IMG/VR virus record: IMGVR_UViG_3300037584_004752
Span: 1-41,852 of that record
DNA from: a virus
Reading direction: 5' to 3' (one strand)
Length of the DNA stretch: 41,852 bases
Positions 5,468-32,672 of the stretch are shown here, one piece after another. The stretch's first letter is position 1; each line of letters begins with the position of its first letter. The translations under genes and the position numbers were made by a program. The notes beneath the pieces are model-generated. The model ran no database searches, had not been told where the DNA came from, and saw nothing but the letters and a program-made list of their open reading frames with translations.

Positions 5468-6274
5468 TTATACTCCACATAGGCCCTCGCACTCTTGATT
5501 AAAGAGATCTGGCCCATCATCGTTTTTAAATTTAACTTCGTCTAAAGGTACACAAGATCTGTGTACAAAGTTTTTTACTTTAGGATTATGCATTCGCATC
5601 TTTTTATCAAATTCTACAGCACTTGCAAATTCTTTTGGTCTGTTGTTTCTCATATCTAACCAAAAGTTATCATCATGAAAAGGACAACCTATACAAGCAG
5701 ATTTAACAGGTACTTTAAAACCTTTACCCTCATACCATTTTAAACAATCTTGTCTGGACATTTTCTTTTCAATTAATGGCCATCTATTTTCTTGCCACCA
5801 AAATCTAGAGGGTTTCATTCTCATAATTTCATCCATAGATATACCCACCCAAACTTCTATGTGTTTATCTTTTGGAAATCTTTGTCTTGGTTTCAACCCA
5901 AATATTTCTCTAATTTTTTTTGCAATTGGAGTTATTTTATATTCTCTTGTGCATTGTCTTCTTCCCATTCCTTTTTTACCTTGGTCATTCAAAGTATAAA
6001 ATGGTGCGGAAGCAAATTGGTTTCCGCCTGGAGATAAAGCTTTTATTATATCATCTTGAATATTACCTTTTTTAACTATGTGTATTGGATAACTTATTAC
6101 ACTTTTTAAATATTCTAAATGTTGTATTACAGGTTCAGGTTCCCAACCCGTGTCAGCAAATACAGCTGCGTCAGGCTTAACACCAAACTCTCCTGCATCT
6201 GCCATTAAAGCCATTGTTGAGCTTTGAACACCAGCTCCTAATGATAAAATTCTTAATGATGGATTTTCTTTCAT
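5468..6274 (-). CDS. PAPS-reductase-like PP-loop ATPase/sulfotransferase family protein
   Basis: Predicted 268 residues. A PP-loop, SLGAGVQSSTMAL, lies at 11-23, followed by VFADTGWEPEPV (38-49), typical of the phosphoadenosine phosphosulfate reductase/DndC-like superfamily. Conserved-looking cysteines are C108 (RRQC), C194 and C197 (ACIGC), C241, C262 and C266, enough to bind an iron-sulfur cluster as in DndC-type enzymes. The family activates a substrate with ATP. Here it could serve sulfur transfer to nucleic acid or nucleotide modification, but no partner genes for DNA phosphorothioation are visible. Its stop overlaps nothing to the left; its ATG overlaps the preceding gene by four bases. 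Confidence 0.8.
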   Translation of the reverse strand: MKENPSLRILSLGAGVQSSTMALMADAGEFGVKPDAAVFADTGWEPEPVIQHLEYLKSVISYPIHIVKKGNIQDDIIKALSPGGNQFASAPFYTLNDQGKKGMGRRQCTREYKITPIAKKIREIFGLKPRQRFPKDKHIEVWVGISMDEIMRMKPSRFWWQENRWPLIEKKMSRQDCLKWYEGKGFKVPVKSACIGCPFHDDNFWLDMRNNRPKEFASAVEFDKKMRMHNPKVKNFVHRSCVPLDEVKFKNDDGPDLFNQECEGLCGV

Positions 6275-20909: not shown

Positions 20910-21785
20910 TTACTTAGCTGATATCAACTCATCGTGGAACTTGCCTTGGTACTGATGTTCTCCCACATGAACTATGGCATCATTAATGTATGCATAACAT
21001 TTACCACCCATGTCTCTCCAAAGCTTACAAAAAGCAAAATCTTCCCCATTGTAAGTCTTTTCTTTTGGATCGTGTAAGGTATCAAAAAAGTTCCACATAT
21101 TTGGTTTATTCACATATTTACCATTGATAACTGTCTTTTGTACTATTTCTTTGTCAGGATATTTTTTAATCATTTTTTCTATGACTTCTCTTTTAATAAG
21201 CATACATCCTGTTGGTGAATCAGTTACCTCCATAACACCCTTATTAACCTTTATATTATCAGGATCAGGCACTTTCATAGGGTAGGTATGTAGGGCTCTT
21301 CTAATATCATCAGGTGATTTTATTAAACCTAGTTGCATTTTATTAAAAGCTTTTTCCCACATTAAAGTTTTTAAAGGGTATGGAACGGATATAATATCTT
21401 TATCAGCTTTCAACATGGTAAATATAGACTTACCTTGGAAATAAATATCGGAATCAATAAACAATAAATGTGTTGCTTTTGATTCTAATAAACCAGCTAC
21501 TGATAAATTTCTTCCTTGAGTCACTAAAGATGATTTTATTAAATGAAAAGATACTTTTAATTTTTTCTTAAAACATTCTTGTTGAAACTCTATTAATGCT
21601 TGTGTGTAATGTATAGAAACATCACTATGAACAGGTGTTGCAACAAAAACTTCAAAATTTTTATATTGATCTTTATCTTCTTTCCACAAAGGTTCTATTG
21701 CCTTTTCATAATCAGATTGAGTTTCTATGTTTACCTCTTGTAATGTTTGGTAAGTATCTTCGTTTATATATTTACTGTTTGACAC
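20910..21785 (-). CDS. GT-A-fold glycosyltransferase
   Basis: Predicted 291 residues. The start is a GTG at 21785 with AAAGGAG six bases upstream, overlapping the previous gene by 14 bases. Features: FVATPVHSDVS (about 48-58), SSLVTQGRN (nucleotide-sugar region), ATHLLFIDSDIYF with the DxD metal motif (about 111-116), TGCMLIKREV, and the C-terminal GEDFAFCKLWRDMG with VHVGEH. It would transfer a sugar from a nucleotide donor. The acceptor is unknown. It forms a unit with the GT-B enzyme and the DUF6445-type oxygenase upstream, inside the virion module. Confidence 0.82.
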   Translation of the reverse strand: MSNSKYINEDTYQTLQEVNIETQSDYEKAIEPLWKEDKDQYKNFEVFVATPVHSDVSIHYTQALIEFQQECFKKKLKVSFHLIKSSLVTQGRNLSVAGLLESKATHLLFIDSDIYFQGKSIFTMLKADKDIISVPYPLKTLMWEKAFNKMQLGLIKSPDDIRRALHTYPMKVPDPDNIKVNKGVMEVTDSPTGCMLIKREVIEKMIKKYPDKEIVQKTVINGKYVNKPNMWNFFDTLHDPKEKTYNGEDFAFCKLWRDMGGKCYAYINDAIVHVGEHQYQGKFHDELISAK

Positions 21786-22701
21786 GTAAAGCTCCTTTCA
21801 AAAAGTTTTCCCATTCCATAGCTTTTTTATCCCAACTATAAAATTTTTTATAATATTTTTGTTGTTCTTCTAAATGATTTTGCATCGTATCTGTATGTAA
21901 ATATTGAGCAGAAATATCTATTGCTCCTGCTATGCTTGCAGATAATAATTCTAAATCTTTTGTGTAATTTACATATACAGGCCATTCTGCACAAGTTTCT
22001 GGAAGTGCTCCAAAGTTAGTTGTAATAACATGAAGCCCTGCAGCTAAAGCTTCTAAAGCTGAAGCACAAAACGTTTCTTCAAATATTGATGGATATACAA
22101 ATAAATCATAATCTGTAATGTGGTCTAATAAGTATTCGTTAGGTTTGTAACCTATATAATTTACATTTGGTAACTTTTTTGCTTGATTAAAAAGTGCTTC
22201 TGTATCTTTATTTGCTTTATCAGCAAATTCCTTACCATAGACATCATTTGAACTATAAACATCTAAAGTAATATTTTTATTTTGTAAAAGTTGCATAGCT
22301 AAAAGCAACACATTTAAACCTCTCCAAGGAGTGCAATGATGCATAATTCTAATAGGTTCTCCCTTTTTATAAATTTTTCTTTTTGGAAAATGATGTGCAC
22401 CATTTTTTATGACCATTGATTTATCTTCAGGTATTTGAAAAAAATATCTAAATTTTTCATAACACCAATGTGAGTTAAAAACATACCAATCATATTCATT
22501 GTGTCGGTCTTTATTTCTAAAAAAACTTTGTAGATTAGGTTGATCCCAAGAGTTTTTTTGCCAAAGTATATTTATCTTACTGGGATCCAGTGGCACTTTT
22601 CCTGGAATAGATGTACATATTTGAAACTTATTTAATAAGTCTTTTGATACATACTTTTCAAGCAACTCTTGTTGTAATTCTGTTGCACCTCTAGGTTTCA
22701 T
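21772..22701 (-). CDS. GT-B-fold glycosyltransferase (GT4-like)
   Basis: About 309 residues. The ATG at 22701, with GAAAGG ten bases upstream, is preferred over a TTG at 22719. The C-terminal domain carries the GT4 hallmarks: RIMHHCTPWRGLNVLLLAM (sugar-nucleotide domain start), LPNVNYIGY, DLFVYPSIFEETFCASALEA with the Ex7E motif, and GLHVITTNFGALPET. It would retain or invert a sugar from NDP-sugar. It overlaps the oxygenase gene before it by 11 bases and the GT-A gene after it by 14, so the three are co-translated. The acceptor is unknown. Confidence 0.88.
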   Translation of the reverse strand: MKPRGATELQQELLEKYVSKDLLNKFQICTSIPGKVPLDPSKINILWQKNSWDQPNLQSFFRNKDRHNEYDWYVFNSHWCYEKFRYFFQIPEDKSMVIKNGAHHFPKRKIYKKGEPIRIMHHCTPWRGLNVLLLAMQLLQNKNITLDVYSSNDVYGKEFADKANKDTEALFNQAKKLPNVNYIGYKPNEYLLDHITDYDLFVYPSIFEETFCASALEALAAGLHVITTNFGALPETCAEWPVYVNYTKDLELLSASIAGAIDISAQYLHTDTMQNHLEEQQKYYKKFYSWDKKAMEWENFLKGALRVKQ

Positions 22702-23266
22702 TTTTTTTGTACCTTTCAAGTGTAGATTCTTTAGTAACTATAAAAAATGGTTGTACCCATCTTTCTTCTATATCTTGTTCTGTAGAAGGAGCGTGTGGCA
22801 CAAGGGGATTGTAAAAAACACATCTGTTAAATTTTGAACCTATTGTTGTCGTTGGTTCATAAGAGTCTTTAGTTATGAAAAAATGAGTGCCATCTTTAAA
22901 TGAATTTGAATTAAGATAGATTAAACCTGCAAAATCATAAAAGTCCTCATCAACATGGGGTCTTAGCTGTTTCCAACAAGAAGATTTTTCTAATTCCATT
23001 TTTTTAGTTTTTCGTAAAAAAGATTTTAATTGTAATACTTTTAAACCAGTTTGTCTTTCAAAAGTTTTTTTAAGTGTATTAATTAACTCATGATTTGATT
23101 CTAAGGTAAAAGGACTTGTTTGATAACAAGGATAAGCTTTAAATTTATCTGCGTTCATCCAAATATTATTAGGTTGATGACAACTTATAAAATGTTCGTT
23201 TATAAAATAAAATAAAACTGTGCCATATTCTTCTTTATTATAAAAGTTTTCAATTAATTGAAACAT
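22691..23266 (-). CDS. 2OG/Fe(II) oxygenase-like protein (DUF6445 type)
   Basis: Predicted 191 residues. The metal-binding HxD is in LRPHVDEDFYDFAGLIYLNS (about 101-120), the distal His in VFYNPLVPHAPSTE, and an Arg follows 11 residues later (EERWVQPFFIV). This fits 2-oxoglutarate/Fe(II) dioxygenases of the DUF6445-like group; the family name is from memory. It would hydroxylate an unknown substrate. It is coupled to two glycosyltransferase genes, which suggests that a hydroxyl it makes may be glycosylated. This is inference. Confidence 0.72.
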   Translation of the reverse strand: MFQLIENFYNKEEYGTVLFYFINEHFISCHQPNNIWMNADKFKAYPCYQTSPFTLESNHELINTLKKTFERQTGLKVLQLKSFLRKTKKMELEKSSCWKQLRPHVDEDFYDFAGLIYLNSNSFKDGTHFFITKDSYEPTTTIGSKFNRCVFYNPLVPHAPSTEQDIEERWVQPFFIVTKESTLERYKKNET

Positions 23267-24121: not shown

Positions 24122-24643
24122 TTAATAACCTGAATGTAAGCCACCAATACCACTTGTATGTCTTGATTGTGTTGGAGCAGGTGCGGATGGTGCTTTTGTT
24201 GATGCTGGAATATTACCACCACCTCTTGCAATATCTTGTGCACTTGCTTCCATGTTCATAATTTTTGCTGGGATTGTTTTAATGTTTCCTTGAGAATCTT
24301 CTTTCATGTTTTTTTGTATTGCTTTCTGGTTTCTTTTGTTTGTTAAATATTCTGATATACCTAAAGCTCTGCCAGATAAAGCTGATACTGCAGCAAGAGG
24401 AGCAAACATACTTGAGCCCATTCCTAAAATAGATAATACTCCTGTAGCTTGTGCAGCATTCAAACCTATTTTTTTAGCCGCATAATCAATGGCTTTATTT
24501 TTTATTGCATTACCTGCAAGTTCTTTTAATGTAGGTAGTTCCATACCACCTCTTAACTCTTCTTGAGGTAATAATGGTTGAATGCCTTGAGGTTGCATAG
24601 TCTGATCACCAGGCACAAATTCATTTACTAGATCTGGTTCCAT
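24122..24643 (-). CDS. Virion-module protein with hydrophobic Ala/Gly segment, unknown function
   Basis: Predicted 173 residues. Residues about 55-95 are hydrophobic (AAQATGVLSILGMGSSMFAP, then LAAVSALSGRALGIS), able to cross or enter a membrane. The tail is Pro/Ser/Thr-rich. The start overlaps the stop of the tail-hub gene (TAATG). It may be a small ejection or tail protein; this is inferred from position and composition. Confidence 0.55.
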   Translation of the reverse strand: MEPDLVNEFVPGDQTMQPQGIQPLLPQEELRGGMELPTLKELAGNAIKNKAIDYAAKKIGLNAAQATGVLSILGMGSSMFAPLAAVSALSGRALGISEYLTNKRNQKAIQKNMKEDSQGNIKTIPAKIMNMEASAQDIARGGGNIPASTKAPSAPAPTQSRHTSGIGGLHSGY

Positions 24644-26802
24644 TATCCCCTCATTCCATCTAATTGAACATCTGCTCTAAAAGTTCCAAAACGCCAATTT
24701 TGTTCTGTACTAGTATTAGCAATTTTTAAACTAGCAAATCTAGCCCTCGCTCTAGTATCAACTTTCTTGGTCGATCCGGTGACCGTGAATGGTCCTAAGG
24801 GAGACGATGCTTCTGTATCTGCAGGAAAATCTCTAAGTAATATTGTTACTTGAGCATCCCCTTGTATAGTTTTAAAATCAGGTACAAATCTTCTCATACT
24901 CATAAAAAACTCAGCACTAGTTCCATCAGGATTTAAACTAAAATCTCCTGATTCTATAAAAGCTGGTATAGCAGTTTTATTACCAGATGTATCTACTTCA
25001 TCAACACCTTTTTCATGTTCAAAATATTTAGTTGATCCATTTATATTTGTAACACCTTGAACAGTTGGAAAACTACCTACACCTGTTGAGTTAAACTCTG
25101 TAGCGTAAGGATTTGAAAATAAATTTGCATCTACCCATGTTGTTCTTGATAAAGATCCAGTTACCCAAGTTCCATCTTGATAGTTGTAACATACATACCT
25201 ATCATTAAAGTCAGACGTAGCTTGAGGATAATACCAACATATTTCTTCATATAAATGATTTAAACCTACGTATACTGATTCACCAGCTGAAAAGTTTACT
25301 CCTAAATTGCTTCCGTTTTTTGTTGTAAAAACAAAATCTTCAACCGGACAAGGAAGTGATTTTACTGTACCATCAAAAACAAAAAAGCCACCAGATTCTC
25401 CCATCCAATAAACTGCACCATTAACATATTTCATAGCGTGTTGACCAATACACCCACAGTTAGAACCGACTTGTCTAATAGAAAAAGTAAAAGGTGGTCC
25501 TACAAACTGCATTACATACGCTGCATTATCTGTTAAAATTAAAGTATAATCTTTACCTTGAACAGCACCTACAATTTTTGTTCCTTGGTCTACTCTAAAT
25601 GTTCCCGCAGTGTTAACTGAAGTAGGTGTGTAATCACTTGTATTTTCTTGATCTGAAAATCTTATAAATAGTTTATCTTGTGTTGAGGTATCTCCTACCG
25701 TTGTTTCAGTGCCTAACATTATTAAATGTCTATCTCTATCTGAAACCAAAGACATAACAGATCTTGTAGGAGCGTTTGAAATTACTGTAGCTCTTGTATT
25801 GAGAGCATTTGCATTTGAATTTATTGGGTTCCAAGAAAAAGACTTACCATTTTTAATGGTAGCAATAAGTTGTTCTCCAAAATTATCTAAAGACCAAGAT
25901 CCAGGATCTATTGTTAATGTTGAAGACAATGATTCAATACCCCATCCTGTAAAGACTTCAACACCTGCACCACTTGAATGTGCGGATCTTGTTCCTGCTG
26001 CAGCTCTTGTTATTCCTGTAAGGTCGTTAGATGAAATTCCTGTGTATGAAATAAATTCTGCTCCAACTTTTATTGTTCCTGTGCTTGGAAAGTTTGTAGT
26101 AGATGCTAGCGTAACTGATGTTCCTGATCCACCAGTTCCAGCAGTGTCATCTAATAAGGCTCCGTTCAAAGTGCTAAATACTTGTTGGCCACCACCCCAA
26201 AGTCCTGTACCCCAACCAAATCCAAATGTTGAACTTAAAGCTCCTGGTTTTATATATGGAGTAACTGTTGCAGATCCAGATCCGTTGACCGTTGTCCCTG
26301 CTGCGCTAGCCATTGTAATAGTAAACTCATCACTACCTGGAACGGTTACTACTTGAAAAGGGTTAGTTGTAAAATTTGCTGCAGTATATCCTGCTCCTGT
26401 AGGAGGTGTTACAGAGCTAAATAAAAAAATATCTCCAGGCTCTAGACCATGAGCTGGTTTGTTAACAGTCACTGTTGCAGAGGTGTTAACAGTATCAAAA
26501 GTACAGCTTGTTAGGGCTGTGCCTAAAGGAGTAATATCAAAAAAAGCTCCTTCATAATAAATTATTAAAACTTTATTTGTTCCTATTGCAGCATATTTTC
26601 TACCGTCTAGATCAGCCCAAATAAATTGTTCTCTAGCCGCTCCTATAATAGTGCTTTCTAAAATTTGTTCCCATCCTCCAATTTTTTCTGGAAGACCGTA
26701 TCTAAATCTAACAAAGTCACCATCAGTCCACTGACCTTGTGCACCGGTTTGTGTAACTTGTTTGTTAAATCCAGGGGCTATATCTACTTTTGTTAATGGC
26801 AT
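24643..26802 (-). CDS. Tail hub/stabilisation protein (P22 gp10-like)
   Basis: Predicted 719 residues. The N-terminus MPLTKVDIAPGFNKQVTQTG, followed by WTDGDFVRFRYGLPEKIGGW, is the signature of the phage stabilisation/tail accessory family related to P22 gp10, widespread in marine podoviruses. The body is beta-rich with repeated short strands, as expected for a propeller-like tail hub. It would plug or extend the short tail below the adaptors. A TATAAT box five bases before the ATG and no Shine-Dalgarno suggest its own leaderless promoter after the modification genes. Two copies of the 12-base motif lie in it (24775, 26281). Confidence 0.8.
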   Translation of the reverse strand: MPLTKVDIAPGFNKQVTQTGAQGQWTDGDFVRFRYGLPEKIGGWEQILESTIIGAAREQFIWADLDGRKYAAIGTNKVLIIYYEGAFFDITPLGTALTSCTFDTVNTSATVTVNKPAHGLEPGDIFLFSSVTPPTGAGYTAANFTTNPFQVVTVPGSDEFTITMASAAGTTVNGSGSATVTPYIKPGALSSTFGFGWGTGLWGGGQQVFSTLNGALLDDTAGTGGSGTSVTLASTTNFPSTGTIKVGAEFISYTGISSNDLTGITRAAAGTRSAHSSGAGVEVFTGWGIESLSSTLTIDPGSWSLDNFGEQLIATIKNGKSFSWNPINSNANALNTRATVISNAPTRSVMSLVSDRDRHLIMLGTETTVGDTSTQDKLFIRFSDQENTSDYTPTSVNTAGTFRVDQGTKIVGAVQGKDYTLILTDNAAYVMQFVGPPFTFSIRQVGSNCGCIGQHAMKYVNGAVYWMGESGGFFVFDGTVKSLPCPVEDFVFTTKNGSNLGVNFSAGESVYVGLNHLYEEICWYYPQATSDFNDRYVCYNYQDGTWVTGSLSRTTWVDANLFSNPYATEFNSTGVGSFPTVQGVTNINGSTKYFEHEKGVDEVDTSGNKTAIPAFIESGDFSLNPDGTSAEFFMSMRRFVPDFKTIQGDAQVTILLRDFPADTEASSPLGPFTVTGSTKKVDTRARARFASLKIANTSTEQNWRFGTFRADVQLDGMRG
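24775..24786 (+). repeat. GC-rich 12-base motif, copy 6 (11/12)
   Basis: TCCGGTGACCGT inside the tail-hub gene, encoding TVTG on the minus strand. Confidence 0.5.
26281..26292 (+). repeat. GC-rich 12-base motif, copy 7 (10/12)
   Basis: TCCGTTGACCGT inside the tail-hub gene. It is the most divergent copy and could be chance. Confidence 0.35.
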
Positions 26803-26822: not shown

Positions 26823-27350
26823 TCATGGCCAATAAACATATTTGAACTCTGAATTATCAATCGTATATTGTAAAAAACTCTCATTTTCAACTATAGGAAA
26901 CCCTGCTAAATTGAAAGAAGTGTTAAGCAATATAGGCACACCAGTTTTTTCATAAAAATATTTTATTAAATCATAATAATTTGGATTATCTATTCTTTTT
27001 AAAGTTTGAACTCTACATGTATTATCTACGTGTACAATTGAAGACACTTCTTCCAGAGCTTTGTTTTTTGCTTTTACAGCAAAAGACATATAAGGACTTT
27101 CACTTAACGATCCTAAATCAAAATAATCATGTGCATGCTCAAGTAGAACTGTACCAGCTAAAGGTCTCCACCATTCTCTTTTTTTAAATTTATTAACAAT
27201 ATTTTTTGCGTCTAGGTTTCTTGGATCAAATAAAATAGATCTATTTCCTAAAGCTCTAGGTCCCCATTCACTTTCATTTTGATAAATCACTAAAGGTTTT
27301 TGTTGTAATAAAATTTCAACTGCTTCTTCTTTTTTTCTTATATATGCCAT
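26823..27350 (-). CDS. Carbamoyltransferase, C-terminal domain as a separate protein
   Basis: About 175 residues starting MAYIRKKEEAVEILLQQKPL at the ATG at 27350; the open frame extends upstream but that part is antisense-like and overlaps the oxygenase gene. The hallmark ESEWGPRALGNRSILFDPR (about 25-43) of the Carbam_trans_C domain is present, followed by REWWRPLAGTVL, SPYMSFAVK, VHVDNTCRVQTL and GVPILLNTSFN. The domain is complete. In TobZ, CmcH and NodU it is fused behind the Kae1-like domain. Here its partner is the gene at 27959-28882, with an oxygenase gene in between. The two proteins presumably assemble to make and transfer carbamoyl groups. Confidence 0.88.
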   Translation of the reverse strand: MAYIRKKEEAVEILLQQKPLVIYQNESEWGPRALGNRSILFDPRNLDAKNIVNKFKKREWWRPLAGTVLLEHAHDYFDLGSLSESPYMSFAVKAKNKALEEVSSIVHVDNTCRVQTLKRIDNPNYYDLIKYFYEKTGVPILLNTSFNLAGFPIVENESFLQYTIDNSEFKYVYWP

Positions 27351-27354
27351 AAAA

Positions 27355-27975
27355 TTATTGACCTTTTCTTTTACATAAAAAATTTCCAGACACTGACACC
27401 CTTTCCACATCACTTCTAAAAGGCATGACTGTATGATGTAAATTAGCTGGAAAAATATATAATTCATTTGTTTTAGGAAATCTTGTATGGGAACATATGT
27501 AATCACTATATCGGTCTTGGGTACCATATATAAACTGAATAGCACCTGGTTTACCTTCTCCTTCAGATACAAATTCTATAGCTTCTTTTTTTATTTCTTC
27601 AGGAACTTTTAGATATAGCACAAAAGAAATATCGCCTGAATGAGTATGAGGAGGATTAAATTCATTCTTTCTCATGTAGTTTATCCATAGTGAATTTAAT
27701 TTCATATGTTCTATTTTTTGTGAGTTTATTGTCCAAACATTTTCTTTCGTTTGAATATAGTTTAAAAAGTATTTACTTGTATGTTCTACAAACCAATCAA
27801 TATCTTGTTGTGTGTAAAAATTTTCTCTATCAATATGACCAGCAAGATTTTGTCTGTTATCATTTGATTTTACTTTATTACTTCTTTTTAAAAGTTCTTT
27901 TGTTATGTGGTCTTCTACCTCAAATTTGGCTACAAAAGGTCCCCAATATAAAAATTCATTATTTATAGATGTCAT
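27355..27975 (-). CDS. 2OG/Fe(II) oxygenase-like protein nested in split carbamoyltransferase locus
   Basis: Predicted 206 residues. The core is NPPHTHSGDISFVLYLKVP (about 107-125) with the His metal ligands, and FPANLHHTVMPFRSDVERVS (about 174-193) with the distal His and an Arg for 2-oxoglutarate, as in the 2OG-FeII_Oxy_5 type. The ATG lies inside the end of the carbamoyltransferase N-terminal gene (17-base overlap), and the stop lies five bases before the C-terminal gene's ATG. This tight packing implies that the three products are made together. The substrate is unknown. Confidence 0.78.
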   Translation of the reverse strand: MTSINNEFLYWGPFVAKFEVEDHITKELLKRSNKVKSNDNRQNLAGHIDRENFYTQQDIDWFVEHTSKYFLNYIQTKENVWTINSQKIEHMKLNSLWINYMRKNEFNPPHTHSGDISFVLYLKVPEEIKKEAIEFVSEGEGKPGAIQFIYGTQDRYSDYICSHTRFPKTNELYIFPANLHHTVMPFRSDVERVSVSGNFLCKRKGQ

Positions 27976-28882
27976 AGTATAACGCTGCTCCTATAGCTGT
28001 ACCCGCATCATGAGGTATTGGATCTACAAAAAAATTTAAATCAGGATATTTTTCTACATATTTAAAATTATTTGAACAATTAAGAAAATAACCACCAGAT
28101 AATAAAATATTATTGTTCATATGTTTTGCTTGATCTATTAACTCACATGTTTCTTTAAAAGTTTTTTCTTGTACTTCTTTTGCAATTTCTACTTTATTGT
28201 AATCTAAATCATATTTTTTTTTACAATAAGCGTAAGAAGAAAGTCCCATAACCTTACCCGCAGAGTGTCCACTATTATATCCTAAACTTTTACAAGCCTT
28301 ATCAAACTCAATTCCACCCACGGCAAAGTCTGAAAATTTATTTAAAAATCCTCCTAAATATTTAAATTTAACCATAGAATTTTGTTGGTCTCCAATTTCC
28401 ATATTACTCTTCCAGCGTGTGTGGTGTTTATAAATAGGATTTACATTTTTTTTGTTAATATAATAAACCGATTCTATTTCTTGAAAAGGTATATAAAAAT
28501 TACTAGCTCCACCACCATCTACAACTATTGCTAAAGCTTCTTCAAAATTTGAAAAATAAAAAGAACAGATTGCATGATATAAATGGTGTTCTCTTACATT
28601 AAAATAGTAGGGTGGATCACCCAATTGATTTTGTAAATTTTTAATCATTTGTTGATCATCTTCAAGAAAATAACCATTGTTGCTTCCATAAGAAGCATAA
28701 CAAACAAAATCTGGTTTAAAATTTATTTTTTGTAAAATAGATTGATATATTTTTGGGGCAGGAACTAAATCATAATCTTTGATTCCAACAAATCTTTCTT
28801 CATTATAAAAATCAATTATCTTACCATTTTGATAAACACATATGGAGGGGTGGTGAGAAATATTAATAGAAAGTATTTTCAT
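27959..28882 (-). CDS. Carbamoyltransferase, N-terminal Kae1-like domain as a separate protein
   Basis: Predicted 307 residues. Domain markers in order: KILSINISHHPSICVYQNGK (ATPase-fold start), EERFVGIK, EHHLYHA (98-104; H99 and H103 as the metal-binding His pair), VVDGGGAS (120-127), SAGKVMGLSSY, LLSGGYFLNCSNN and PIPHDAGTAIGAALYY at the C-terminus. This is a full N-terminal domain of the NodU/CmcH/TobZ carbamoyltransferase family, which forms carbamoyl-adenylate from carbamoyl phosphate and ATP. It stops exactly where the family's C-terminal domain would begin. That domain is encoded separately at 26823-27350. Confidence 0.9.
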   Translation of the reverse strand: MKILSINISHHPSICVYQNGKIIDFYNEERFVGIKDYDLVPAPKIYQSILQKINFKPDFVCYASYGSNNGYFLEDDQQMIKNLQNQLGDPPYYFNVREHHLYHAICSFYFSNFEEALAIVVDGGGASNFYIPFQEIESVYYINKKNVNPIYKHHTRWKSNMEIGDQQNSMVKFKYLGGFLNKFSDFAVGGIEFDKACKSLGYNSGHSAGKVMGLSSYAYCKKKYDLDYNKVEIAKEVQEKTFKETCELIDQAKHMNNNILLSGGYFLNCSNNFKYVEKYPDLNFFVDPIPHDAGTAIGAALYYDIYK

Positions 28883-28889
28883 AAAGTAA

Positions 28890-29123
28890 TTATGATTTAT
28901 CTCTATCTATTCCTTCCATTTTAGAATCTTCATTACTAGGTGTTTTTTTTAATTTTTCATTGAAGTTTTGATTCCACTCTGCAACTATTTTGACAAGATT
29001 GTTTCCAAAGTGTCTAAGAGATTCAGCGGTTAAATAAATTTTACCTTTCTCTGTAATTATTTTTTTCTCTTCTTCAGAAAATATTATGTCACAAGAACCA
29101 TCTTTGTTTTGTTTAAAAATCAT
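28890..29123 (-). CDS. Small hypothetical protein
   Basis: Predicted 77 residues. It starts MIFKQNKDGSCDIIFSEEEK, then a helix (LTAESLRHFGNNLVKIVAEW) and a charged tail. The ATG overlaps the preceding oxygenase gene by 11 bases, and the stop is seven bases before the carbamoyltransferase start. It is part of the cargo cluster 30958-26823. No family is recognised. Confidence 0.6.
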   Translation of the reverse strand: MIFKQNKDGSCDIIFSEEEKKIITEKGKIYLTAESLRHFGNNLVKIVAEWNQNFNEKLKKTPSNEDSKMEGIDRDKS

Positions 29124-29670
29124 TTTCTAATTGTTCTCCCCAAAAAGTTCTTTTGTCTTTCCACCATTCTTTATTTTTACCATTTGCATCTACATAATGA
29201 AAGAAAACTTGTGCGTGCCAATCTCCTTGAAATTCTTTTCTATAGTGCTCAACATCACAACCTAGATAAATTACTGCATCACCATCTTTAAGTTCAATTT
29301 CTTTATCGCCTATAAAAATAGGCCAAGGTGTACTATCTGAACCAATCATAGCTGTAACACTTATTTCACAAGACTCACGATCTGTGTGTTTTTTTAAATC
29401 TGCAAATTTTGTATACATCCTCCAATAGCTGTATGTAGGATGTAATTTTAAATTAGTTTCTTTTTCCATAAGATCAAACTTAGTCAAAAGAAAAGATTCC
29501 ATTATTGGATCTGCATAATAGTTTGTGTCACAATTTTTATTTTGTCGAAGATCAAATGAGTTGATGTTTAATCTATGTTTAATAAATACATATTTGTTTA
29601 ATAGTTTTACTTCTTCTTTTGAAAAAAAGTTTTTTACAATTTTATACTTTGTATCTTTTATAGTGCCCAT
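29113..29670 (-). CDS. 2OG/Fe(II) oxygenase-like protein
   Basis: Predicted 185 residues. Metal-binding HxD is in LKKHTDRESCEISVTAMIGS (HTD, about residues 95-97). KDGDAVIYLGCDVEHYRKEF carries the distal His, followed by DWHAQVFFHYVDANGK, typical of a phage oxygenase group. The residue ten after the distal His is His rather than Arg/Lys, so 2-oxoglutarate binding may use a different residue or be lost. It overlaps the neighbouring oxygenase gene by 13 bases. Substrate unknown. Confidence 0.75.
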   Translation of the reverse strand: MGTIKDTKYKIVKNFFSKEEVKLLNKYVFIKHRLNINSFDLRQNKNCDTNYYADPIMESFLLTKFDLMEKETNLKLHPTYSYWRMYTKFADLKKHTDRESCEISVTAMIGSDSTPWPIFIGDKEIELKDGDAVIYLGCDVEHYRKEFQGDWHAQVFFHYVDANGKNKEWWKDKRTFWGEQLENDF

Positions 29671-30224
29671 GCAACCACCGAATATCTAGTTCCTTTTGTA
29701 ACTGGTTTTACGCAATGAGGGTACAAAAAATTACTTGGCCACATAATTAATCTAGCAACTTTATTTTCAATAGTAAATTCGTTTTCTCCTTGTGGTTCTC
29801 TAAAACAAAGATTACCGCCTTCATAATCATTATTTAAGATAAGTATGCAGCTTATGGTTCTTGGTATATCTTTAAAATGATCCCAATGATAATTATATTT
29901 ATCAGAAAGATTATATTTTAATATATCAATATTAAGTATTTGTGATGTTATTTTATCTTTAATTGAAGTATTAAATTCTTCATTATATAGATTTAAATGT
30001 CTTTGAATTATTGCAAACAAAAAATTATGCCAATGAACTATGGTCATAGAATTTGACAAAGGAGACAAAGGTGTAATTTTAACGCTTCTAATTTTTTTGT
30101 TTATTTTATTATTTGCAACTCCTCCCTCTTCAAAATCTAAAGTGTTTGCAACTTGTATTAAACTACCTATTGCCTTATAAGGCACTGCATTATCATATAT
30201 TTTTATATATTTTTTTAAGTCCAT
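29658..30224 (-). CDS. Prolyl-4-hydroxylase-type 2OG/Fe(II) oxygenase
   Basis: Predicted 188 residues with a classical P4H-like core: YNYHWDHFKDIPRTISCILI (HxD; about 111-130), NNDYEGGNLCFREPQGE, and MWPSNFLYPHCVKPVTKGTR, with the Arg exactly ten residues after the distal His for 2-oxoglutarate. All key residues are present, so it should be active. P4H-type enzymes hydroxylate proline in proteins, but phage members are not characterised well enough to fix the substrate. It overlaps both neighbours by 10-13 bases and lies two genes downstream of the tail-fibre pair. Confidence 0.85.
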   Translation of the reverse strand: MDLKKYIKIYDNAVPYKAIGSLIQVANTLDFEEGGVANNKINKKIRSVKITPLSPLSNSMTIVHWHNFLFAIIQRHLNLYNEEFNTSIKDKITSQILNIDILKYNLSDKYNYHWDHFKDIPRTISCILILNNDYEGGNLCFREPQGENEFTIENKVARLIMWPSNFLYPHCVKPVTKGTRYSVVAWAL

Positions 30225-30958
30225 TTTTTTTTAGACCAATATTTAGTTTTATAAATATGAAGACTTTGTAAAAAATAAAAAAGTTTTCCTTTTCTAAAAT
30301 ATTCGGTATTAGCACTTTTTATTTTCATTTTCCAAGGATCTCTTTTAAAGGGTATTATTTGAACGTAAGCTGTTCCTTTTTTTATTGTTGTATCGAGAGT
30401 TGGGTATTTATCGCCATTTATAATTATTGGAAAATTAACTTCATTAGGAAAGGTATCCGTATCAACTATACCTGGTATTATTGAAAACCTGTCATCATGA
30501 TTATTCATTGGAGGTAAAAATAAACAAGAATATCCTGGAGGTGTAACTATTTTCCAAGGGTTCATAATTTTTATAAAAGGTTGATTATTATTTTTACCAA
30601 CTAAAGGAGAGCCGCTAAGTTGTTGTGTAGCATGAAATTCAGTGTTACTACGTCCAAGATTTATAGACTTCGCACCTAATAAATTATCATCTATTTGTTT
30701 TGGTGTAAAAAAAGAATCAGGTTCACCTTTGTCATTTTTCACATTGTTTTTAAAAGTATAATCTTGTGGCACCCTTAGAAGATATCCAGTTGTAAGTGTA
30801 TCTAAAAAAGGCATGCAACCTTTTACTGTTTGCATTTCTCGATTATGTTCTAATTTTTTATACCATTCAGGTATATTCAATTTTATTGGTGTGGGGTAAT
30901 CTTCTTTTAAATCAACGTATTCTTCATGTGCAATGAATTCAATAATTTTATCATTCAT
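30215..30958 (-). CDS. Conserved marine-phage protein, possibly DUF6065-like
   Basis: Predicted 247 residues. TPIKLNIPEWYKKLEHNREM (about 23-42) and VKGCMPFLDTLTTGYLLRVP (about 45-64) recall the DUF6065-type family found in cyanophages; the name is from memory and uncertain. The second half, with PWKIVTPPGYSCLFLPPMNN and FPIIINGDKYPTLDTTIKKG, reads like a cupin or double-stranded beta-helix fold, which would relate it to the oxygenases beside it, but I see no complete HxD...H triad. It is the first gene of the cargo cluster ending at 26823. Confidence 0.6.
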   Translation of the reverse strand: MNDKIIEFIAHEEYVDLKEDYPTPIKLNIPEWYKKLEHNREMQTVKGCMPFLDTLTTGYLLRVPQDYTFKNNVKNDKGEPDSFFTPKQIDDNLLGAKSINLGRSNTEFHATQQLSGSPLVGKNNNQPFIKIMNPWKIVTPPGYSCLFLPPMNNHDDRFSIIPGIVDTDTFPNEVNFPIIINGDKYPTLDTTIKKGTAYVQIIPFKRDPWKMKIKSANTEYFRKGKLFYFLQSLHIYKTKYWSKKKWT

Positions 30959-30993: not shown

Positions 30994-31434
30994 CTATAAT
31001 AATTCTAATAAGTTAATTACTTCTTGTCCTTGATCATTTATCCATTTTTCTAAAGGTTCTGAAGCAGGAATAGAAGACACATCAAGAGAGTTTAAATAAT
31101 CTCTGTAATTTGTAACACTGCTTGCAAAAGGTTTACTTGAATTATTTTCAAGCCAACTATTTATACCTTCTAAAATATGATTTTTATCTTCATTATGTTC
31201 TATGTCATAACCATCATATGTTATGTCTTCATAAGTAACATTTGTTCCATCATAATTAACACTTTTTAAAGAAAGTCTCACTGCATCAAAATCAGATTGA
31301 GAAACTTCTACAATATCATAATCATCTTGACTCCAATCAGCATTATTATCTATATGATTTTGATCTTTTGCAATCTTAAAAAGTTTTCCGTATACAACAC
31401 TTGAATCTTTAGTTAAAATTAATTTTGCCATCAT
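30994..31434 (-). CDS. Acidic protein after the tail fibre, possible fibre chaperone or accessory
   Basis: Predicted 146 residues, acidic (many Asp, Asn and Ser), with IVEVSQSDFDAVRLSLKSVN, SWLENNSSKPFASSVTNYRD and a C-terminal helix. The start overlaps the fibre stop (TAATG), so it is translationally coupled to the fibre gene, the usual place for a fibre-assembly protein. No sequence family is recognised; the role is inferred only from position. Confidence 0.5.
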   Translation of the reverse strand: MMAKLILTKDSSVVYGKLFKIAKDQNHIDNNADWSQDDYDIVEVSQSDFDAVRLSLKSVNYDGTNVTYEDITYDGYDIEHNEDKNHILEGINSWLENNSSKPFASSVTNYRDYLNSLDVSSIPASEPLEKWINDQGQEVINLLELL

Positions 31435-32672
31435 TAAGCTCCTGTATTTTCAAAAACGTATATCGCACCGCCCCCACCTGTTTGACCAGTAGTAGAACCG
31501 GGGCTTCCACCCCCTCCGGGTTGACCAGCGTTGTTTATAACAAATCTAAAAGGTGAACTTATTGAAATTGCAGACGGGTTTCCACTCGTTCCTGTATTTC
31601 CACTTTGTCCAGGAACAGATCCTGGTTGTCCTCGGTTTGCACCGTTACCACCATTAAAATTAAAAACGTTTGCTAGAGAAGTAGCTCCACCTGCCGAACT
31701 GCTAGAAAATCTAGCACCTCCAGATCCTCCACTTCCAATAGTGAATGGTTGAGAGAAAGGATGAGTAAATGGGTGACCAATGTAACCGTAAAAACCGCTT
31801 CCGCCACCGCCCCCACTTGTAGTATCTGGACCGGATCCAGCTCCACCTCCACCTCCACCTGCAGCATATATTCCAAAAAAAGATCCATTTGCATTTGAAG
31901 TTAGAGTTCCGCTTGAGTTAGTAAAAGTTTTAGGTTCAAATCCTCCACCTCCTGCAGATCCTGATGAAGCAGCAGTAAGTCTTCCTTGAGCATCAACAGT
32001 AATTGAAGACGCTGTATAAGAGCCAGCTGTTACAGCAGTGTTTGCAAGTTGATCAGCACCAACAGCATCATCTGCTATTAAGGCAGTAGTAATTGCATCG
32101 TCAGCGATTGCTGCAGTAGTCACAGCATCATCAGCGATAGCAGCAGCTACAATGGCATCGTCAGCAATCTTGGCTGAAGTTACAGCATCGTCAGCAATTT
32201 TTGCAGTAGTCACTGCACTGTCAGCAATTTGTGCTGCAGCTACTGTACCACCTAAAGTGTCTAATGAAATTTCATTTAAGTTTGTTCCATCAGAATATGC
32301 TGCGTAAATTTTAGCAGCGTCTAAAGTAAATCCTGTTCCTGATGCAGTTTTAATTGTAAGGTTTGCAGGATTTGTTAAACCTGTTGCATCAAATATATAA
32401 AATTTTTCTATTGAATTTGGAATAGTACAAATTGTGCTTGCTGCAATCGTTGCAGTTGCAAATTTGATAACCATGTTTCTTGCATTTGATAATGCACCGT
32501 CTGACATTACAAGAGCAAGAGTACCACCACTTGATAATGTTACTTGTTCAAAACCAGCAATAGCTTGTTGAATTACATTTAAATTTGTATTTGTTTTATC
32601 ACCCCATGTACCAGCGTTCTCACCGGTTACCATTAGTTCTAGTTTTAAATCACTTGAATAACTTGATGCCAT
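31434..32672 (-). CDS. Tail fibre with decapeptide repeats and Gly-rich tip
   Basis: Predicted 412 residues; AAGGAG precedes the ATG. The N-terminal part (SDLKLELMVTGENAGTWGDK) is shared by many marine-phage fibres. Residues 149-208 are six decapeptide repeats of the form IADDAVTTAK, as in trimeric fibre shafts. From about 240 to the end the protein is dominated by glycine (AAGGGGGGAGSG, TSGGGGGSGF, GSGGSGGARF), with GxP-containing stretches (NRGQPGSVPGQSGNTGTSGN). This resembles the polyglycine-II tips of T-even gp38-type adhesins. It should recognise the host surface and would be a natural target for the nearby oxygenases. Confidence 0.82.
   Translation of the reverse strand: MASSYSSDLKLELMVTGENAGTWGDKTNTNLNVIQQAIAGFEQVTLSSGGTLALVMSDGALSNARNMVIKFATATIAASTICTIPNSIEKFYIFDATGLTNPANLTIKTASGTGFTLDAAKIYAAYSDGTNLNEISLDTLGGTVAAAQIADSAVTTAKIADDAVTSAKIADDAIVAAAIADDAVTTAAIADDAITTALIADDAVGADQLANTAVTAGSYTASSITVDAQGRLTAASSGSAGGGGFEPKTFTNSSGTLTSNANGSFFGIYAAGGGGGGAGSGPDTTSGGGGGSGFYGYIGHPFTHPFSQPFTIGSGGSGGARFSSSSAGGATSLANVFNFNGGNGANRGQPGSVPGQSGNTGTSGNPSAISISSPFRFVINNAGQPGGGGSPGSTTGQTGGGGAIYVFENTGA
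32049..32228 (-). repeat. Six 30-bp coding repeats in tail-fibre shaft
   Basis: Six tandem degenerate 30-bp units encode IAD[DS]A-type decapeptides (residues 149-208 of the fibre). Units differ mainly at the last four codons. Confidence 0.8.

Follow-up and report, generated by a model that had tools for sequence, protein, structure and literature searches.

The locus analysed here raises the question of why the two domains of a carbamoyltransferase, which belong to one polypeptide in the characterised enzymes, are encoded by two genes with a complete oxygenase gene between them, and whether the three products act as a single dedicated assembly. The window, i.e. the whole stretch of DNA that was analysed, is a virus record of 41.9 kb. 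The three genes lie on its minus strand. They encode a 307-aa protein that corresponds to the Kae1-like (acceptor/transfer, iron-binding) domain of class III O-carbamoyltransferases standing by itself (N-half, 27959..28882), a 2OG-Fe(II) oxygenase of 206 aa (OxyA, 27355..27975), and a stand-alone YrdC-like (carbamoyl-phosphate/ATP adenylation) domain of 175 aa, whose ATG lies at 27350 (C-half, 26823..27350). As judged from the sequences, and with a probability of about two in three, the two halves would constitute a two-protein class III O-carbamoyltransferase of the TobZ/GdmN type whose split is old, the acquired oxygenase being an optional enzyme of a decoration island and not a required subunit.

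The surrounding genes are read along the minus strand in the order tail-fibre-like protein (31434..32672, from the PHROG search), 146-aa protein, 247-aa island protein (30215..30958, PHROG 7084), two proteins of the 2OG/'ferrochelatase' type, a 77-aa protein conserved in the island (28890..29123, PHROG search and relatives), N-half, OxyA, C-half and a 719-aa virion structural protein (24643..26802, PHROG 3287). OxyC (29658..30224) is a 2OG-Fe(II) oxygenase by its match to PF13640 (E 3.3e-15); OxyB (29113..29670) matches PHROG 2954 ('ferrochelatase') and has other PHROG matches in common with 2OG proteins; its fold is probably that of an oxygenase. 'Ferrochelatase' and 'DNA endonuclease V', the names of PHROGs that these 2OG-oxygenase-like proteins match (29113-29670 and 29658-30224), are probably misannotations. 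A group 1 glycosyltransferase (21772..22719, minus strand; PF00534, E 1.8e-15) shares strand and module with the island, and the replication module holds a PAPS-reductase-like gene (5468-6274, PHROG 424).

The nearest counterparts of the structural protein are found in the pelagiphages HTVC023P (60% identity) and HTVC027P and in phage 023Pt_psg01, with identities of 49-60%; the window is therefore an HTVC023P-like phage, and from this relationship a SAR11 host is likely. HTVC023P-type pelagiphages, with a structural gene up to 60% identical, carry 2OG oxygenases and a 'ferrochelatase' at the same island position (PMC9599517), and no carbamoyltransferase is annotated in the stretches compared, though similar oxygenase islands are kept. 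The arrangement of the three genes occurs in a separate IMG/VR contig (L002), 99.7% identical to the window over 4.4 kb with 13 mismatches, which carries both junctions. Since this is nearly the same phage, it counts as a second assembly and not as a second lineage.

The N-half matches Pfam PF02543 (E 3.3e-10) and positions 1-319 of PHROG 1601. Its residues H99/H100, H103, D122, D292 and H10 are invariant in the N alignment of 16 sequences. In GdmN the iron ligands are H133, H137, D156 and D333 and the general base is H27 (PMC9633730); their counterparts in the N-half are H99, H103, D122, D292 and H10, and a profile alignment placed HHxxH, DGxG, the base His and the last Asp on those of TobZ. 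By its AlphaFold model, with a pLDDT of 86.7 and a pTM of 0.87, the N-half is expected to form a complete Kae1-like domain, and the top PDB match was TobZ (E 1.2e-12, TM 0.70), with only 17-18% identity in the aligned fold and part of the middle region of TobZ absent from the N-half.

The C-half matches PF16861 (E 2.8e-51), positions 359-521 of PHROG 1601 and PHROG 20469, a 181-position family made of C-halves alone. The open reading frame as listed is longer by 74 codons and opens with an upstream TTG, but the relatives use the ATG at 27350 as their start. The motifs GPRALGNRS, KxRExxRP, HVD..R.QT and NTSFN were recognised in the family alignment and in the alignment to VtdB and NovN; GPRALGNRS is invariant in the C alignment (14 sequences) except for the P of GPR, replaced in a few (GKR, GSR). 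Comparison with the oxygenase-free relative L003 returned a dN/dS of 0.097 for the N-half and 0.126 for the C-half, whose values lie at 0.10-0.13; these are about equal to those of oxygenase-free relative pairs. Both halves are intact in their motifs, and at a dN/dS of about 0.1 both are strongly constrained by purifying selection. The earlier note had described an enzyme divided at its domain boundary into two complete halves, each with its own start and stop, and a full oxygenase gene closely spaced between them. All of this held, as the PHROG 1601 boundaries, the HHxxH and GPRALGNRS motifs kept in the window and the junctions of the second contig attest; the three intact genes are joined by a 17-nt overlap and a 4-nt spacer, and three separate products are expected.

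Both halves gave profile matches to TobZ, GdmN, NovN and VtdB (PF02543 + PF16861), with which the pair shares the two domains, their order and the iron-ligand and GPRALGNRS motifs. However, each of these enzymes is one polypeptide, whereas the window encodes two proteins on separate genes, which a third gene keeps apart; as the characterised members have both domains in one polypeptide, the pair was filed as a split variant and not as a standard class III member. The YrdC-like adenylating and Kae1-like transferase proteins of tRNA t6A synthesis, TsaC/Sua5 and TsaD/Kae1, are also separate (PMC10321239, PMC11648230). Their substrate is threonylcarbamoyl/tRNA, while the sequences of the window halves place them in the TobZ family. 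A place in the TsaC/TsaD family was rejected, the matches being to the Carbam_trans families and TobZ-type enzymes. The 5-hydroxymethylcytosine carbamoyltransferase (PMC8670742) is phage-type and acts on a hydroxyl, like the family of the window pair, but it is fused, distant in sequence and has a thymidylate synthase homologue as partner. Membership in this DNA-modifying group was likewise rejected, as the sequence branch differs and no thymidylate synthase was found among the window proteins tested.

The family of the window pair is that of the marine-phage 'Nol-like carbamoyltransferases' (PHROG 1601; PHROG 20469), of which P-SSM2 carries a fused form. In named phages the halves carry several separate 'Nol-like carbamoyltransferase' annotations, and one PHROG family consists of C-halves only, so that the split itself is already in databases, though without remark; a search of the open-licence literature found no published description of a split phage carbamoyltransferase. 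The named phages S-RIM44, Sf-FP1 and S-SCSM1 have the orders C-N or C-N-C-N, in contrast to the N-C order of the window, and no isolate carrying the N-C split clade was found; the two-part form is widespread among marine phages that have not been cultivated.

Direct N-C splits with no gene between, usually overlapping by about 17 nt, occur in L003, L027, L004-L015, L028, L031 and many more contigs. A de-duplicated census counted 97 split N-C pairs, 28 fused genes, 14 C-N pairs and 7 N-C pairs with an inserted gene; as the sample was drawn by similarity to the window phage, these are counts and not frequencies. In the C-domain tree all split N-C pairs, insertion-bearing ones included, form one clade (support 100/98); the only exceptions are adjacent N and C halves within tandem C-N-C-N arrays. 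In the N-domain tree the split clade costs 3 changes and not 1, and at least one branch is very long. The relatives indicate that the split is old and predates the radiation of a large phage clade. A scan of genome contigs with the N-half for a bacterial source returned 4 matches, 2 of which are short metagenome-derived contigs with split halves (L270 and L271) that could be phage DNA.

OxyA matches PF13759 with E 5.9e-15 (55.9 bits against a cut-off of 27), and the distal His and Arg are present in the stretches HTHSGD and HHTV...ERVSVSGNF. Among the best 80 of its 91 relatives, the nearest is a gene of another viral contig (L040), with 81% amino acid identity and a dN/dS of 0.31. Its sequence relationships indicate that OxyA is horizontally acquired and young relative to the old split. 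The homology to the L040 oxygenase covers 27355..27957 (minus strand), a segment that starts at GAATTTTTATATTGGGG and ends at the stop codon, and the six codons ahead of it resemble the start of a C-half.

The boundaries of this segment preserve the old junction in two copies. In the direct-overlap relative L027 the C-half begins within the last codons of the N-half (ATGACATATATAAATAAAAAAGAAGAAGCAG). In the window, the 17-nt overlap between the end of the N-half and the start of OxyA (27959..27975, minus strand; ATGACATCTATAAATAA) is the left copy of the old N/C overlap, and its ATG is the C-half start in relatives (junctions of L003, L027, L004 and others). OxyA begins on this old ATG (ATGACATCTATAAATAAT), with L040 homology only after the six codons. 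Downstream of OxyA and of the 4-nt spacer between its stop and the next start (27351..27354, minus strand), the C-half restarts with ATGGCATATATAAGAAAAAAAGAAGAAGCAG in a right copy of the overlap (27334..27350, minus strand; ATGGCATATATAAGAAA), which is identical to the left copy at 13 of the 17 positions; 28 of 31 bases of the restored start match that of L027. We infer the following order of events: a foreign oxygenase gene would have recombined into the N/C overlap of an ancestral split pair, OxyA would have taken over the start codon of the C-half with five more codons, and a duplicated copy would have given the C-half its new start. Because the overlap is duplicated, the capture of OxyA left both neighbours whole.

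The N-half is 95% and the C-half 86% identical to those of L003; DNA identity falls at OxyA and stays lower into the structural gene, a drop that marks a recombination boundary near the insertion. In a further contig (L071:4534-7810) OxyB and the structural gene flank an OxyA-like gene (41%); no carbamoyltransferase match fell there, and this slot is thus occupied in the absence of the two halves.

The junction has also received a different gene. A gene of about 160 codons stands between N and C in six de-duplicated contig groups (L138/L252, L254, L256, L257, L263/L264 and L266) and also starts on the old N/C junction (e.g. L252:4882-5370). A weak class I methyltransferase signature, with PF09445 just above cut-off in one member, and low-confidence PDB matches of a poor model (pLDDT 60) to methyltransferases suggest that it is methyltransferase-like. 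In L151/L261, nested among this lineage on the tree, the gene is absent and the junction is direct, which on the tree appears to be a clean loss. The two inserted genes are unrelated, and their carriers are far apart within the clade; the junction has therefore taken up a gene on at least two occasions.

The two domains of the fused enzymes have distinct roles: ATP-dependent activation of carbamoyl phosphate falls to the YrdC-like one, whereas the Kae1-like one attaches the carbamoyl group to the acceptor (PMC9633730). By analogy with these domains we infer that the phage halves act as two subunits. The C-half would activate carbamoyl phosphate with ATP, and the N-half, with its iron site, would take the carbamoyl-adenylate and move the carbamoyl group onto a hydroxyl; since this intermediate is labile, the separately translated halves would have to meet as subunits. 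The site in the tail module, the group 1 glycosyltransferase and the frequent 2OG neighbours suggest that sugars, tail proteins or the host surface are decorated. The acceptor, a guess from these neighbours, would most likely be a sugar or a surface/tail component on which the glycosyltransferases and oxygenases nearby also act. A possible but doubtful extension of the two-subunit reading is that carbamoylation is modular, a YrdC-like activator serving swappable Kae1-like acceptor subunits, with the overlap junction a place where decoration enzymes are repeatedly captured through takeover of the downstream start codon.

It is unlikely that the halves instead work as a free two-step system like TsaC/TsaD, in which the C-half would supply carbamoyl-adenylate with no need of stable binding to the N-half and may serve several acceptor-specific N-halves. 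Such freedom is consistent with the occurrence of N-C, C-N and C-N-C-N arrangements and with the separate Kae1-like and YrdC-like proteins of tRNA t6A synthesis (PMC10321239, PMC11648230). It is also consistent with S-SSM7 (L039:5537-7661), where a fused carbamoyltransferase is followed by a small 2OG oxygenase, a lone extra N-half and then a gene annotated 'denV'. However, N and C lie side by side in almost every locus, as partners would, and the fused enzymes make and use the intermediate within one molecule. The 'denV' gene of S-SSM7 is of the kind whose PHROGs are matched by 2OG-like proteins.

The earlier note had gone further and suggested an assembled complex where the oxygenase makes the hydroxyl that the two-part enzyme carbamoylates. 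An obligate complex of this kind, in which OxyA would hydroxylate the substrate and hand it to the assembled two-part carbamoyltransferase, seems to us rather improbable. It draws on the tight overlap and spacing of the three genes, on the row of fused carbamoyltransferase, 2OG oxygenase and stand-alone N-half in S-SSM7, and on the proximity of 2OG oxygenase genes, which 19 of 24 split pairs but 2 of 7 fused genes have at a distance of no more than 3 kb. But nothing lies between the halves in most split relatives, L003 with its 95% identical N-half among them, so that the oxygenase is not part of the split's design; OxyA is foreign, and an unrelated methyltransferase-like gene fills the same slot in another lineage. 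The same three-gene order, which the earlier note had suggested looking for in other contigs, was found only in the near-copy L002, both among the best 80 of 91 OxyA relatives and in the de-duplicated census, which returned no independent lineage with it. The known class III enzymes (TobZ, GdmN, NovN) carbamoylate hydroxyl groups on sugars or natural products and are not known to need a dedicated oxygenase partner. With the HTVC023P-type islands that lack an annotated carbamoyltransferase, this speaks against OxyA as the source of the hydroxyl, a role to which the frequent 2OG neighbours lend weak support; given these neighbours, OxyA could be functionally coupled to the carbamoyltransferase. 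A two-part carbamoyltransferase with an optional junction gene is thus a better reading of the locus than a dedicated oxygenase-carbamoyltransferase assembly.

Modification of phage DNA, in which the pair would carbamoylate a hydroxymethylated base in the manner of the 5-hydroxymethylcytosine carbamoyltransferase, is very improbable for the window. A fused enzyme of phage type performs this reaction (PMC8670742), and split pairs directly follow a thymidylate synthase gene in S-RIM44 (L033:4352-6607) and Sf-FP1 (L035:4361-6613), both in C-then-N order. In S-SCSM1 (L122:2428-6010) four half-genes in C-N-C-N order, all annotated as carbamoyl transferase, lie immediately downstream of such a gene. 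The C-N pairs of S-RIM44 and Sf-FP1 possibly belong to a base-modification pathway, in a context unlike that of the window. The published enzyme gave no match to the N profile and 38 bits with the C profile, and shows ALCNTT where the C-half has ALGNRS; at this distance its function is not transferable to the window pair. Moreover, the window pair belongs to the tail module and has a group 1 glycosyltransferase in its vicinity, a setting reported in PMC8670742 for contigs without modified cytosine. Finally, gene decay or an assembly chimaera, to which the restriction of the oxygenase-bearing junction to the window contig and a near-identical one might point, can practically be dismissed in view of the second contig with both junctions, the intact motifs, the dN/dS of about 0.1, the clean boundaries with a duplicated overlap and the many relatives with the split.

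A large clade of ocean phages thus encodes, as two chains, an enzyme known biochemically only as one. In at least one natural case, that of the window, programmed frameshifting cannot join the halves, as a whole gene stands between them; in relatives with direct overlap such joining may occur. Since two chains exist in nature, the passage of carbamoyl-adenylate between the two sites can be tested with separate parts. The locus is also a clear example of how a compact phage gene cluster takes a gene into an overlapping pair with neither neighbour broken.
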